Position numbers and translations under genes: made by a program. The notes beneath the pieces are model-generated. The model was given only the letters and a program-made list of their open reading frames with translations, was not told where the DNA came from and ran no database searches. From contig ML996687.1 in the NCBI GenBank assembly GCA_010356995.1, forward strand, positions 869,803 to 933,802: 64,000 nucleotides of DNA, given 5' to 3'. Numbering within the stretch: the stretch's first letter is position 1; each line of letters opens with the position of its first letter. Below, piece after piece: positions 17,980 to 64,000 of the stretch. Source of the DNA: Trichodelitschia bisporula. Its lineage: Eukaryota > Ascomycota > Dothideomycetes > Phaeotrichales > Phaeotrichaceae.

Positions 17980-19434
17980 ATGTCGCTTCCAATTTCGCCC
18001 ATGGAAGCGATTGAAATTGTGCAAAAAGCAGTTGCCTTATACAAGAAGATTCAAGACGCTCCGGAGCAGGTGGCCAAGATCGGGAAGCGCATGGAGCGCT
18101 TGGAGCACTACCTGCGTGGGCTCCAGGAGCTGTTGAACGCAAAGAGCAGCAATACCTTGGCATCACTTCAGCCAGCGCAAACTCAGCAATTGAAATTGGT
18201 GATCCAGGATATCAAATCCGATTCCCAACAAATCTACGACATCCTCTACAAGTGGGACAACAATGTGGGCCCCTTTGGGCTTGAGCTTCGCTTCAAGACA
18301 ATGGCGCAGGCGCTCTTTGCGACTGGCAGCAGTCCGGATAAATTAAACGACCTGTGTGAAAGCATACAGCAGCATCAGTCTGAGCTTAGGGACTTTTTGC
18401 AGCTCCTTGGCTGGTTTGGCCTCAATCAGATTCTAGTTGCCAACCAGGCGTCATCTCTGGAGAAATCTTCCGCAGGAGCCTCCAAAAAGGCTTCCGAGAG
18501 CGCTGCTGAAAAGGATCCCGTGAAGGTCCCCGCACAGGCTTTCGCTAAGAATCCCGGCAAGGCTCCTGCAAAGGCTCCTGCAAAGACGTCTGCAAAGGCA
18601 CCTGTGCAGTCTGCCGCGAAACTCCCTGCAAAGCCCCCTGTACAGACTTCCGAAAAGACTCTCGAGAAGGCTAGCGAGAAGGCGGGCAAGAAAGATCCTG
18701 AGAAGGCGCTCGCGAAGACTTCCACAAAGGTTCCTGCAAAGACCTTTCCGCCGTCTCTGCTTGTGACGCCTTCGAATCCGATCGGACTGGACTACAGCAT
18801 CATCTTTGTCGACGCCCACAACCTGGGACGAAGCCGGGTGGCCGAGGCCCATGTCGAACTCCTCCGTGAGTGGACTTTGGGTGCAAGGGACAACTGGCGC
18901 ATTAGCACAGTGAGCTCAGCGGGGATCCGAGTCAGAACTGGTTGCGATTGCGCGGATATTATGCAACAACTCGAACCACCGGTGCCTTTGGTTGATGGCG
19001 GCAAGCGACCCAACTGGATGGCACTGGCTGCCCTGTTCGACAATAACCTTTTCAATTACCCCTTCAAGTACGAGATTCGAGATGATGCCCTTTCACGAGC
19101 TTCTAAAGGAATCACCACCACGCTCTTCAGTCGCTACGACTACATCCTTGTCTTCACGGGCCGTGATCAAGAAGATCTCCTCCGCCTGAAACAGGCCTTA
19201 GTCTCTAAAATGGGTGCCTCAGCAGCCCCTAAGGGAAAAGGTCGCGTTGCTCACCTCGGGTCATATCTTTCAGCAAAAGGCAAAAGCCCTTCTCCCATGA
19301 AGGAGGCCCAGAAGAATCCGGATGGCTCAGACAGCAGGCAAAACTGGAACAAAACTGTTGCCGAAATCAAAATTGCTGTCAAAGCTTTTCTAAGAAGCGA
19401 GATGGCTTGGTTACCGCCGTCCCCTCTAGTCTAA
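17980..19434 (+). CDS. Two-domain protein: helical N-terminus, Lys/Ala/Pro linker, inactive low-molecular-weight phosphatase-like C-terminus
   Basis: Intronless, 484 residues from the first ATG (an in-frame GTG lies four codons upstream). Residues about 1-160 are predicted helical and resemble, weakly, the N-terminal domains of fungal STAND/NLR proteins. Residues about 160-260 are a low-complexity linker of repeated Lys-x-Pro-Ala units. From about 270 the sequence follows the low-molecular-weight protein tyrosine phosphatase fold: IIFVDAHNLGRSRVAEA aligns with the family P-loop VCxxNxCRSPxAEA, then ISTVSSAGI matches the SAG strand, and YILVFTGRD and AHLGSYL follow late core strands. The nucleophilic Cys is Asp (residue 278) and the second loop Cys is Gly, while Arg284 and Ser285 remain, so catalysis by the usual route should be absent. 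Function unknown; phosphate or phosphoprotein binding is an inference. Confidence 0.75.
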   Translation: MSLPISPMEAIEIVQKAVALYKKIQDAPEQVAKIGKRMERLEHYLRGLQELLNAKSSNTLASLQPAQTQQLKLVIQDIKSDSQQIYDILYKWDNNVGPFGLELRFKTMAQALFATGSSPDKLNDLCESIQQHQSELRDFLQLLGWFGLNQILVANQASSLEKSSAGASKKASESAAEKDPVKVPAQAFAKNPGKAPAKAPAKTSAKAPVQSAAKLPAKPPVQTSEKTLEKASEKAGKKDPEKALAKTSTKVPAKTFPPSLLVTPSNPIGLDYSIIFVDAHNLGRSRVAEAHVELLREWTLGARDNWRISTVSSAGIRVRTGCDCADIMQQLEPPVPLVDGGKRPNWMALAALFDNNLFNYPFKYEIRDDALSRASKGITTTLFSRYDYILVFTGRDQEDLLRLKQALVSKMGASAAPKGKGRVAHLGSYLSAKGKSPSPMKEAQKNPDGSDSRQNWNKTVAEIKIAVKAFLRSEMAWLPPSPLV

Positions 19435-19515
19435 AAAATGCTGCCAGAGCTGCGCCACCATCGCCGCACCAGCGCCACCCGCATTCTATCACCGCTATCC
19501 GGTATCCTGACGTAT

Positions 19516-21327
19516 CTAGTATACATACCTGAATTGAGGATTTTCTCTGTCGGTCGCACCAGCCCACGCGTCCTGGTTGCTCATATCAACCTCACCCACG
19601 TCCTCGACGATACCATGGTTGCTCTGAACCCGGTCCCGCCTTCGATTTTCCCACAGGTAATACTGGAATAAGCACACAAAGACCACGGCGCAGCTTGCCT
19701 GCGTGGCCATGACGGTTAACGTGGCGGGCAAGTACCGCGGCGCGTATTTATCTTGGAAGGTTTGCGGGCCTAGGATTCCACCGATACCGTAGCATGCGCT
19801 CATAACGCCCGCTGTCAACGCACGCTTTGTATGGCCGGAAACGTTGGCCATGGCCCACTGTTGCATAATGGTGGAGATGCTGGTGATCGCTCCCACGAGG
19901 TAGATTCCCACCAACGAACCAGCGGCATTCGGTTGAGGAAGGAAGGAGAGCATCGCTGCGCCAGTGATACCGGCTATTTGGATTGGTCATCAGGTGTTAT
20001 ATGCGTCTATCTGACCGCGGGGCTTACGGATTGTGCATCCCACACCCCACGCCCAACGGTATGACGTCCGTCTGATGCCAAAGCCGACAATCATGTTGGA
20101 CAAGATGTTGACGATCCCGCTGGGCATGTTAAGTAGTGCTGACTGCCTGCTGGTGAAGCCGAGATTCTTGATCAGCGTCGTCGAGTAGGTGCCTGTCAAG
20201 CCAGACGTCATTGCCGCCTGCGCAATTAGCATATGGTTATAGTGGGATATCTGCTGACGTGTGTTTAGAGTCGCATACCAAGACCGCTGGCAGAGCCAAT
20301 CCATATATCTGAACATCCTTGGCAGCCTCCAACAGTTCCTACGCCCCATCAACTCATGCCAACCGCTGGTGGGCTCAACGTGGAGACTTACCCCTGGCCG
20401 CGGCTTGTGGTTCGAGATACCCGTCATATTCACGCTGACGTGCTTCAAAATTGCCACCTTCTCTTCTGTACTCAGCCATCGGGAGTTCATGGGAGTATCG
20501 GGAAGGTAGTAAAAGCACAAGCCAGCAACGAAAAGCGTGATGATGCCAAGTGCAATGAACATCAGCCGCCATCCGGCGAGTTTGCCTTGTTGCGGTACCT
20601 GGAATGCATACGACATCAGCCCTCCAAGGATTTGTCCGACTCCGGGAGCCGAGTGCCAGATGGCGAATCGAGGAGCTTGTTCTGACTTTCTGTACCACTG
20701 AGCTGTGATGAGCATGAGTGATGGGCCGATGGTCGCTTCGGTTATGGCGAGGAAGATTCGGGCAACGAAGATACCAGCAAAGTTTTGGACCGATGCGGTA
20801 CAAAGGGTCACCAATCCCCAGCCGATCATGCACGAGCACAGCCACTTTGAAGCGGGGAGGCGTTGCAACAGGTATGTGTTCGGTAGCTGCATCGCCAGAT
20901 GGGCAAATGCGTACCCCGAAGCAACGTTGGAAAAGTCGCCATGCTTGAAGTGGAGGTCCTTAGGTAGGCCCATGAGAGCTACGAAGGCTATCAGCCCTGT
21001 CCTCCACTACCGGAAAGCCAGCAGCTGCCAAGCTTACCTGTGTACTGTAAAGGGTCAGCGAAGCACAGAGTTATCAGGACGACGAACGTTGTAAATGGCT
21101 TTGTCCAAGAACTGCATGATAAAGCACAAGCACATCAACGGTACAAGACATCGATCGATTTTGTGTCTCAGTTTGACAATGTCGATATGAGAAATGTCGA
21201 CGTCTTTGTGGGCGTCGAGGAAGATGGCGGCACCGTCGAGGTCACTGGGGGCTGGCTCGGACTCGGACTCTGTCGACAGGTTCTCTTCGAAGATGGTGAC
21301 CGATTTCTCGTCTTTTTCGAGCGCCAT
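19516..21327 (-). CDS. MFS transporter, Dal5/allantoate permease-like (anion:cation symporter family)
   Basis: Six exons: 21088-21327, 21038-21044 (7 nt), 20392-20987, 20279-20338, 20028-20217 and 19516-19973; introns 43-61 bp; 516 residues. The acidic N-terminus leads into DRCLVPLMCLCFIMQFLDKAIYNY, the first membrane helix, as in yeast Dal5, Tna1 and Vht1 relatives. Twelve helices are expected; ARIFLAITEATIGPSLMLI, WYRKSEQAPRFAIWHSAPGVGQI and TLIKNLGFTSRQSALLNMPSG are typical ACS-family motifs. Substrates are small organic anions such as allantoate, nicotinate or other vitamins; the exact one cannot be read. The microexon TACACAG is needed to join IYN to TAFVALMGL in frame. Confidence 0.9.
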
Positions 21328-61669: not shown

Positions 61670-63235
61670 CTACGATGCTTCGGCAGCCGCGCTTGCTTCC
61701 TCTTCCACAGATGCCGGGGCAGGGGCCGGGGCCGGGGTCAGGGCCGGGGTGGCACGCTGCCGCAACCGCAAACCCATATAATTTGCCCACCGTTCGGGGA
61801 ACCGATCGGCCGTCGCCTCGCGTGCCCGGCGCTGGCGCACCAGCTTCTCTGCCACCTGCTCCAGCATCGTGTGCGGCGACGCGTACTCCTTGAGCTCTGG
61901 GTCGGCGTCGCGACTCAAGTAGGCGGTCGTTGCCACCTCCATGCGCTTCAGGGTGAGATTTCCCGGGAAAACAACCTTCTTTCCGTCCTGGACTACAACT
62001 TCCGGCTCCCAATTGTCCAGGCGCATTGTCTCCATGCCCGAGCTGACGTTCAACCGCTTGTACCATGTGTGCTGACCACGGGCCGTGTTGAGCATGGCCT
62101 GGTGGTGCTCCTCGCTCTGGGTATATTTGACGAGCATGTTCCTGAACACGGCAAAGTTTTCGGCGATGCGCTTAACAAGGCCCAGGCGGCCAAAGGGGCC
62201 AGGCCATGCTGACGCGAACCCATCTTGGTCCATGTTGTGCCGCCCTGTTCCAATGGACAACAGGAGGGCGGGATGTGCCCTCTCTCCGTATAACGACACA
62301 AACTCTGTCCAAGCGGCGACGGAGGGATTATTTGCGCGAATGCCGCCGTCCTTGAAAACCTTGCGCTCGGATTGAATGTCCGCTTCAAGGGCCTTAAAAA
62401 AGAAGGGTGCGGCACTCGTCGCGCGCGTCACCTCCCAAATTCGCAGAGCGTCTGCTCCTTCGTTGTAGCGGGTGACCCAGACGGGTACGTCAGAAAAGTA
62501 GCGATGGTTATAGGATCGGAGCAGATACGCCTCACTCCGCTTGTTGTGGGTGGCGGTCAAACAGACAGTTTGACAGATGCGCTCAGCCGTGTCCTCGTAG
62601 TACGGCTCGAGATCTAGCGGTTCGGTGCCATCGGGGTGCAGGTGCCACGGGTGCCAGTCCGACCCGTCGCACTCACCGTCTTCGTGCAGCGGGCAGTTTT
62701 CCCGGACAAGACGCTTGACGGCTTCTTGCAGCGGTTGGTGGTGGTACTTTGTGCGCAGTGGAAGGTTGCTTCGCCTTTTGCCGAACAGATCGTTGCCGAC
62801 GGCGCGGTAGGCCTCGAGGCAAGCCGTGATGTTCATGCGCAAGCGACCCAACATAGTGGCGATCAGACCGCCAGTGCTGGTGCCGTACATGACGTCGAAG
62901 TAGTGGCAGGGAAGGAGAGTATTTTCGTCGAAATTCCGACGCTCCGAAGGGTGTTTTACATGGCGCTCCTCAAACTTGTTCTCGAGGGCAGCGATTTCGG
63001 TCATCAAGCGCTTCAGGATCAATAGGCTCGAGTATCCGCGGATACCGCCACCGTCGAGGGTGAGGATGGCTGGGAGCCATGGGTCATCGACGGTTTCGGC
63101 CCAGCGGACATCATCTTGCGACGAGGTGACGCTCAGTGGGCGACGTGGTCGCTGAGGGGGTGCTGGGGAGCCGTTGGCGGTAGTGGGAGGGGATAGTCGG
63201 GAAGGCGATGATGGTTGGGGTGAAAGGGACTCCAT
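61670..63235 (-). CDS. Patatin-like phospholipase domain protein
   Basis: An intronless 521-residue frame from MESLSPQPSSPSRLSP (ATG at 63235); an in-frame extension to 63376 seems to be leader. The patatin domain begins ILTLDGGGIRGYSSLLIL (oxyanion loop DGGGxRG), has the nucleophile elbow MYGTSTGGLIATML (GxSxG) and the dyad Asp in FKDGGIRANNPS, so the Ser-Asp pair is complete. VTRATSAAPFFFKALE and LLLSIGTGRHNM are family-typical. Such lipases act on phospholipid or acylglycerol esters; in fungi some sit beside NB-ARC/TPR domains as NLR-like proteins, but here the domain stands alone. The C-terminus ends in an Ala/Pro-rich repeat (APAPAPAS). Confidence 0.9.
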   Translation of the reverse strand: MESLSPQPSSPSRLSPPTTANGSPAPPQRPRRPLSVTSSQDDVRWAETVDDPWLPAILTLDGGGIRGYSSLLILKRLMTEIAALENKFEERHVKHPSERRNFDENTLLPCHYFDVMYGTSTGGLIATMLGRLRMNITACLEAYRAVGNDLFGKRRSNLPLRTKYHHQPLQEAVKRLVRENCPLHEDGECDGSDWHPWHLHPDGTEPLDLEPYYEDTAERICQTVCLTATHNKRSEAYLLRSYNHRYFSDVPVWVTRYNEGADALRIWEVTRATSAAPFFFKALEADIQSERKVFKDGGIRANNPSVAAWTEFVSLYGERAHPALLLSIGTGRHNMDQDGFASAWPGPFGRLGLVKRIAENFAVFRNMLVKYTQSEEHHQAMLNTARGQHTWYKRLNVSSGMETMRLDNWEPEVVVQDGKKVVFPGNLTLKRMEVATTAYLSRDADPELKEYASPHTMLEQVAEKLVRQRRAREATADRFPERWANYMGLRLRQRATPALTPAPAPAPASVEEEASAAAEAS

Positions 63236-64000
63236 GGTACGGGGGAATATGTAGCTTTGGACGGGATCGGGCCGTTCTGTCGGGCTTGGGTGCGTATATA
63301 TGTAAAGCAGGCGGGGGACGCGGGCTGAATGGGAGGGGTTGGAAGCGTAAAGGGGCGGACTCCAGACGCGGCTCATCCAATTCGTTGAACGCGACGCGAG
63401 CTAATGAGAGCCAGTGAAGACACACAGCCAGCGAGCATGAAGAGTGGTAAAAAAATTAGGAGAAACAAGGCAAAAAGACCAGAAGAGACGGGGGGGGGGG
63501 GAGAGTAGCGAAGGCCGACAAAGGAGTCGCCGTCACTCTCGGCCCGTTGACCCCAGAATATGGAAATATGCGATCAAAACTGGAGAATAATGGGGTGGGG
63601 AGGAGAGGAGAGGTGGGCGTGTGTGGCTTCGCAAATTACAGCGATGCCGCTCTCTGGGGGGCTTCCTCAGCTTCTGGGGAAATAATGCGCCTCAAAGCCT
63701 CACGGGCTGGTTGGCTGGCCTGGCTGGCCTGGCTGGCGGGAGTGGCAATAACCTTATGGCTTTTGGGACTGCGCCCCCCCTGTGACGACGGGGGATGAGC
63801 GGACCGCTAACCTGGATCGCGAGTTGAGGCTCTGGCACTGGCGCCGATGGGCTGTACCGTACGGTAGTGGTGTTGTCGCGATTCTGTGCGATGTCGGCTT
63901 GTGATGAGAGCAAGATAGCGATGAGTTTTGCTCTGAAGGATGATTCATGAACGATGAGAAGATGAGAGGATAAGGTGCGGAAGGCACCACGAGGCAGACT
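63236..64000. other. Right-edge intergenic region
   Basis: About 765 bp to the window edge without a supported gene. It holds a G run (63491-63500), a ctggctggc tandem array at about 63708-63740, and a palindromic GTACCGTACGGTA motif at 63855-63867. Confidence 0.5.
63708..63740. repeat. CTGGCTGGC-type tandem array
   Basis: About three and a half copies of a 9-bp unit, tggctggcc, in intergenic DNA. Confidence 0.6.

Follow-up and report, generated by a model that had tools for sequence, protein, structure and literature searches.

The low molecular weight protein tyrosine phosphatases (LMW-PTPs; Pfam family PF01451, LMWPc) are a lineage separate from the class I enzymes (PMC6662751), and a single member each has been tabulated for N. 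crassa and A. nidulans (PMC3931568). Fungi are said to be without recognizable tyrosine kinases (PMC3931568); tyrosine phosphorylation has nonetheless been reported in Trichoderma reesei (PMC6662751). Binding is an established mode of action for pseudophosphatases (PMC10211241), and most of those in the literature consulted have a class I (PTP/DUSP) fold. Cysteine-less proteins of LMW-PTP fold are already known: kinetoplastid proteins matching the LMW-PTP domain are without the catalytic Cys, for which their authors suggest either inactivity or an alternative mechanism, and in the authors' tree these proteins group with bacterial ArsC, well separated from the LMW-PTPs (PMC2175518). The gene described here belongs to the fungus Trichodelitschia bisporula (genome of 25.65 Mb in 30 contigs) and lies in a window, that is, the whole stretch of DNA analysed, of 64,000 nucleotides from contig ML996687.1 (C1; positions 869803-933802). 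It is a single-exon open reading frame (ORF) of 484 amino acids (17980..19434 of the window, forward strand) whose C-terminal domain descends from LMW-PTP, with aspartate in the place of the nucleophilic cysteine.

LMWPc was the only Pfam family listed for the C-terminal domain (residues 259-484; 18754..19431, forward strand), matching residues 262-484 with an E value of 2.7e-4 and 21.6 bits, and with an E value of 0.0025 when the whole protein was queried. A comparison set of 81 LMW-PTP loci was drawn from prokaryote genome contigs (80) and viral contigs (1); at least 468 of the 589 candidate stretches in the genome-contig set encoded a relative, and the best 80 were kept. Alignment of the profile of these 81 loci to the domain with hhalign yielded a score of 33.0, which was reached by none of 200 shuffled sequences (all at or below 22.1), the reversed domain scoring 11.5. 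A plain hidden Markov model (HMM) gave the domain 9.0 bits, a value that none of 5,000 shuffles reached (2,529 returned a reported score), by the thin margin of 0.1 over the best of them at 8.9. The window has 340 open stretches of 80 codons or more in its six frames, 213 of which received a score; the 484-residue ORF ranked top at 7.0 and the next scored 1.8. Residues held in common with LMW-PTP follow the pattern F-V-x-x-x-N-x-x-R-S-x-x-A-E-A, and further LMW-PTP elements come after it in order. Since Pfam listed LMWPc only and the hhalign score exceeded that of every shuffle, the homology is, as judged from these profile comparisons, beyond chance.

The altered P-loop (residues 274-285, IIFVDAHNLGRS; 18799..18834, forward strand) reads V277-D278-A-H-N281-L-G283-R284-S285-R-V-A-E-A. 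All 81 fetched LMW-PTPs carry C-x-G-N-I-C-R-S-P at this position. The nucleophile Cys is replaced by Asp278, encoded by GAC, and the second Cys by Gly283, with Asn281, Arg284 and Ser285 kept, so that the gene has D278-x5-R284-S285 in place of the C-x5-R-S signature. An earlier interpretation made from the letters of the stretch alone (hereafter the sequence-only reading) had identified both substitutions and the retained Arg-Ser correctly. It had also described the loop as intact apart from its nucleophile, which holds for Asn, Arg and Ser, as well as for the AEA that follows; it does not extend to the second Cys, to the Gly before Asn, which is His, or to the Pro after Arg-Ser, which is Arg, and the general-acid loop is insecurely aligned. 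A candidate remnant of that loop, V-P-D-P-Y in the relatives, is N446-P447-D448-G449 (19315..19326, forward strand; alignment uncertain), where hhalign pairs Asp448 with the Asp of the DP(Y/F) loop, PD with PD, and MAFFT pairs Ser438 or other residues. The domain is a phosphatase homologue without a required catalytic residue, and as such a probable pseudophosphatase. As the thiolate needed to attack the phosphate is missing, we infer that Cys-based phosphatase activity would be absent; the retention of Asn, Arg and Ser suggests that the shape of the loop may still be needed.

An AlphaFold2 model of residues 267-484 was built with aligned rows from 56 of the 81 LMW-PTP loci. Neither of two MAFFT alignments placed all elements: full-length rows put the P-loop right, strand 2 off by three residues and the acid loop onto Ser438, and fragment-split rows put strand 2 right and lost the P-loop. 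The rows were therefore trimmed 10 residues upstream of the acid loop and the shift in strand 2 was accepted. The resulting model (pLDDT 73.6, pTM 0.72) comprises strand 272-278, helix 282-300, strand 306-312, helices 346-354 and 380-385 and strand 388-391, followed by helix 394-411, strand 422-425 and helix 453-475, with short helices at 325-328, 369-374 and 428-431; this order of strands and helices is that of LMW-PTP. The last helix was still predicted despite the trimming, with block-mean pLDDT values of 90 and 88 (residues 457-476). A Foldseek search of the model against the Protein Data Bank (PDB) returned 745 matches at E values up to 10, of which 46 reached 0.001 or better, and the best 50 of the 745 were all LMW-PTP-family structures, a few of which we take to belong to that family. 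The best TM score was 0.79 when normalised to the length of the target and 0.58 to that of the query. The characteristic LMW-PTP fold was thus found in the predicted model, a result that is not independent since LMW-PTP rows went into it. The likeness to LMW-PTP proposed by eye in the sequence-only reading was borne out by the profile comparisons, with the predicted fold in support.

Residues 316-328 (18925..18963, forward strand), where pLDDT falls below 50, belong to an insertion behind strand 2 that spans 22 alignment columns. This stretch holds the only two cysteines of the domain, Cys322 and Cys324, and the Cys-Asp-Cys at residues 322-324 (18943-18951) is a putative metal or redox site.

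The genome also contains one ordinary LMW-PTP, on contig C11 (L002:1456-2010), with an ordinary D-P-Y-Y-G-G acid loop. It was the only PF01451 match listed genome-wide, and its presence rules out the 484-residue gene as the sole LMW-PTP of the fungus. Its P-loop is interrupted by an intron, which by eye appears to separate the second Cys from the catalytic Arg.

Upstream of the phosphatase-like domain, a helical N-terminal region (residues 1-160; 17980..18459, forward strand) was predicted by a low-confidence, single-sequence AlphaFold2 model (pLDDT 62, pTM 0.55), with five helices at 7-26, 28-53, 65-96, 101-113 and 119-157. A fold search of this weak model against the PDB gave a designed protein as its best match (E = 0.27). 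The two regions are joined by a low-complexity linker of Lys, Ala and Pro (residues 161-258; 18460..18753, forward strand), of 98 residues where the sequence-only reading had counted about 100, with 22 A, 21 K and 13 P and a net charge of +12. Tandem units of 12 bases occur within it 3.8 times at 18559-18604 and 2.3 times at 18665-18692, so the length of the linker may differ among strains.

It is considered probable that the gene encodes an adaptor protein in which N-terminal helices and a K/A/P tether are combined with an LMW-PTP-derived pseudophosphatase used for binding. The helical region, joined to the pseudophosphatase domain through a flexible, positively charged tether, would oligomerise or localise the protein, and the C-terminal domain would work by binding. 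Its partner could be a protein surface, or else a ligand, phosphorylated or otherwise anionic, gripped by Arg284 together with the amides of the loop. Asp278 may pair with Arg284 and keep the loop folded; such a pair could stabilise the loop yet oppose the binding of phosphate. A binding or scaffolding role would be the most economical view by analogy with other pseudophosphatases.

Several results weigh against the adaptor interpretation or the assignment beneath it. The PF01451 score of 21.6 bits is below the curated cut-off of 23.2, and the genome-wide PF01451 search at E values up to 10 listed the canonical gene only. A phmmer search of PDB sequences with the whole protein reached LMW-PTPs only at E values of 0.86-2.1; matches to the linker and unrelated proteins ranked ahead of them. 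The fold model serves as support and not as an independent test, because LMW-PTP rows steer the prediction. The phospho-ligand version is weakened because the carboxylate of an Asp at the centre of the loop would repel phosphate. No orthologue in which conservation of Asp278 or purifying selection could show was seen in the prokaryote and virus collections, and the partner, ligand and localisation of a pseudophosphatase adaptor are putative.

The searches for relatives covered prokaryotes and viruses, and their negatives carry no information on fungi. With the C-terminal domain as query, tblastn returned 11 plasmid records, all with E values of 3 or worse, and 82 phage records with a best E value of 0.07, the best 20 of the 82 being mostly tape-measure genes. 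A related-locus search with the same domain found none in the prokaryote genome contigs (21 pattern-matched stretches) or the viral contigs (4), and none was found in viral contigs when a single exon of the canonical LMW-PTP served as query.

The alternative that survives best, which is nevertheless unlikely, is that the gene is a decaying duplicate: once an LMW-PTP fusion gene, it would have lost its function recently while its frame stayed open. Decay would agree with the lack of relatives in these collections, with the single copy in the genome, where searches with each half of the protein separately found no second place for either, and with the alteration of positions that are invariant among the 81 relatives. 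The ORF itself is intact where the sequence-only reading had placed it, running from an ATG at 17980 to a stop codon ending at 19434 with an intron unnecessary. A codon-usage model was trained on seven neighbouring ORFs and the frame of the gene compared with the five others. The gene's own frame was preferred for the whole ORF (0.075 bits per codon) and for the N-terminal part (0.065), linker (0.078) and C-terminal part (0.081), and the remaining frames scored negative, except that the linker reached 0.02 in one reverse frame; an artefact of a wrong frame was ruled out by this fit. The seven neighbours, each scored with itself left out of training, ranged from 0.065 to 0.181, which places the gene at their low end and is a point for decay. 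However, 484 codons are free of stops, codon use resembling that of coding sequence throughout the three parts of an open ORF would speak against decay, and the scaffold of the loop (Asn, Arg, Ser, then AEA) is kept though both cysteines are gone.

HeLo-like domains are common N-terminal domains of fungal NLRs (PMC4986451), and the sequence-only reading had likened the N-terminus of the protein to those of NLR/STAND proteins. If so, it might be a HeLo/SesA-like executioner or adaptor with a dead phosphatase as sensor, active in self/non-self recognition or cell death, a proposal that is rather unlikely. SesA (PF17107) ranked second of ten weak Pfam hits on the N-terminal part; its 18.0 bits (E = 0.0033) fall short of the cut-off of 26.3, and PigL_N (PF17111) was not listed in that scan. 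As a control, the reversed N-terminal domain matched an unrelated family at an E value of 0.0032, and of nine shuffles made three scored, the best at 0.062. Because the reversed sequence attains this level, the SesA match is, in terms of these sequence scores, at the level of noise. Searches of the genome itself listed three places for SesA and four for PigL_N, and the gene was at none of them. Comparison of the N-terminal domain with four local SesA/PigL_N-type regions gave an hhalign score of 13.7, which was reached by 4 of 60 shuffles, and a best BLAST E value of 0.22; an HMM of the four regions gave 8.4 bits (E = 1.6e-4 for a single sequence), the sole result in favour among these local comparisons. 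Of the helical, STAND-like N-terminus originally proposed, the helices stand as a low-confidence prediction and the STAND likeness was not confirmed.

The genome holds 33 NACHT matches at E values up to 0.001, which is in keeping with a STAND-linked protein, but the closest one listed on the same contig is approximately 834 kb from the gene. Twenty upstream regions of NACHT genes, taken as the adjacent open frame only and so missing N-domains separated by introns, produced no significant match to the N-terminal domain (best E values of 0.15 with phmmer and 1.1 with BLAST). Five Pfam families were listed for the 484-residue protein at E values up to 10, NACHT and NB-ARC not among them, and no repeats were listed in it by the Pfam scans. 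No fusion of either half to NACHT, which the sequence-only reading had suggested looking for, was seen in the genome, neither half having a second match there. The main texts of two fungal NLR surveys, in the form available, contain no word beginning 'phosphatase' (PMC9815663, PMC4986451). Several of the NACHT upstream regions (L093-L115) have closely similar starts, MPPAKRIRTRG..., and an IGWICAL-type N-domain, and look like a recent NLR expansion.

A self-contained sensor-effector, in which a helical effector and a charged, repeat-bearing linker are coupled to a dead LMW-PTP that reads a phosphorylated or anionic ligand, is very doubtful. It would, if true, compress into one small protein a task for which fungal NLRs employ NACHT and repeats. 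The literature search, which covered titles and abstract openings and few subscription journals, found among the papers listed no precedent for the LMW-PTP fold as a sensor, and no paper on a fungal LMW-PTP pseudophosphatase or an LMW-PTP-STAND fusion.

Descent of the C-terminal domain from another Rossmann-like family, in which the Cys was never present, is highly improbable: it would accommodate the PF01451 score under the cut-off and the omission of the gene from the genome-wide search, but the shared residues are those of LMW-PTP, its elements follow in order, and the best 50 of the 745 Foldseek matches belong to that family. HAD phosphatases carry out Asp-based hydrolysis and have a DxD pattern. 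Least credible of all is an altered enzyme, a HAD-like Asp-based hydrolase in which Asp278, positioned where the first strand of a Rossmann-like fold ends, would act as nucleophile or metal ligand; although the Asp is exactly at the nucleophile place and Arg284 and possibly Asp448 are kept, D278-A-H280 is without the second Asp of the HAD pattern, no Asp-based phosphatase family was matched in Pfam and no metal site was identified.

The neighbours of the gene that matched Pfam are ordinary, and include a dihydroorotate dehydrogenase, a flavin oxidoreductase, an MFS transporter fragment and a pro-kumamolisin/subtilase pair. No match to NACHT, HET or kinase families was found in the 30 other ORFs scanned, which are part of those in the window. 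The MFS transporter gene (19516-20973, reverse strand) converges on the 484-residue gene and reads as two or more overlapping ORFs, which may reflect introns or a broken frame, and an imperfect 11-base tandem repeat lies directly behind the stop codon, at 19452-19479. A patatin-like phospholipase ORF of 568 amino acids was found at 61670-63376 (reverse strand; PF01734, E = 1.5e-16). The gene content of the genome points to a fungus, with Spo7, Dsc3, pro-kumamolisin and many NACHT genes.

Among the closest described systems is LMW-PTP itself (human ACP1, yeast LTP1, N. crassa pty-4), with which the adaptor proposed here shares the fold, the order of elements and the Asn, Arg and Ser of the P-loop. 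The adaptor differs in having Asp for the nucleophile Cys and Gly for the second Cys, in insertions that span approximately 22 and 10 columns when aligned with the bacterial rows, and in the added N-terminal helical region and linker. Fungal SesA/HeLo-like N-domains offer a helical N-terminal region of comparable length, whereas the gene has no match to them above the cut-off and no NACHT or NB-ARC listed. The kinetoplastid ArsC/LMW-PTP-like proteins are likewise without the catalytic Cys, but Gly replaces it there and Asp in the fungal gene; no fused helical domain is mentioned in the available part of their description (PMC2175518), whereas the fungal gene has a predicted one. The combination of Asp at the nucleophile place with a helical fusion in a fungus was without precedent among the titles and abstract openings searched. 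STYX and other pseudophosphatases have a phosphatase fold without the nucleophile Cys and act by binding (PMC10211241), and the same idea is proposed here; STYX, however, is of class I DUSP fold with Gly at the nucleophile place (PMC10211241), and the present gene is of LMW-PTP lineage with Asp. An LMW-PTP that has Asp where the nucleophilic Cys belongs, and is fused to other parts, widens the list of pseudophosphatases, and such genes would be missed in phosphatase counts because their scores fall under family cut-offs. Should orthologues keep D-x5-R-S, the LMW-PTP loop would have been reused as a binding site in organisms said to be without recognizable tyrosine kinases (PMC3931568).
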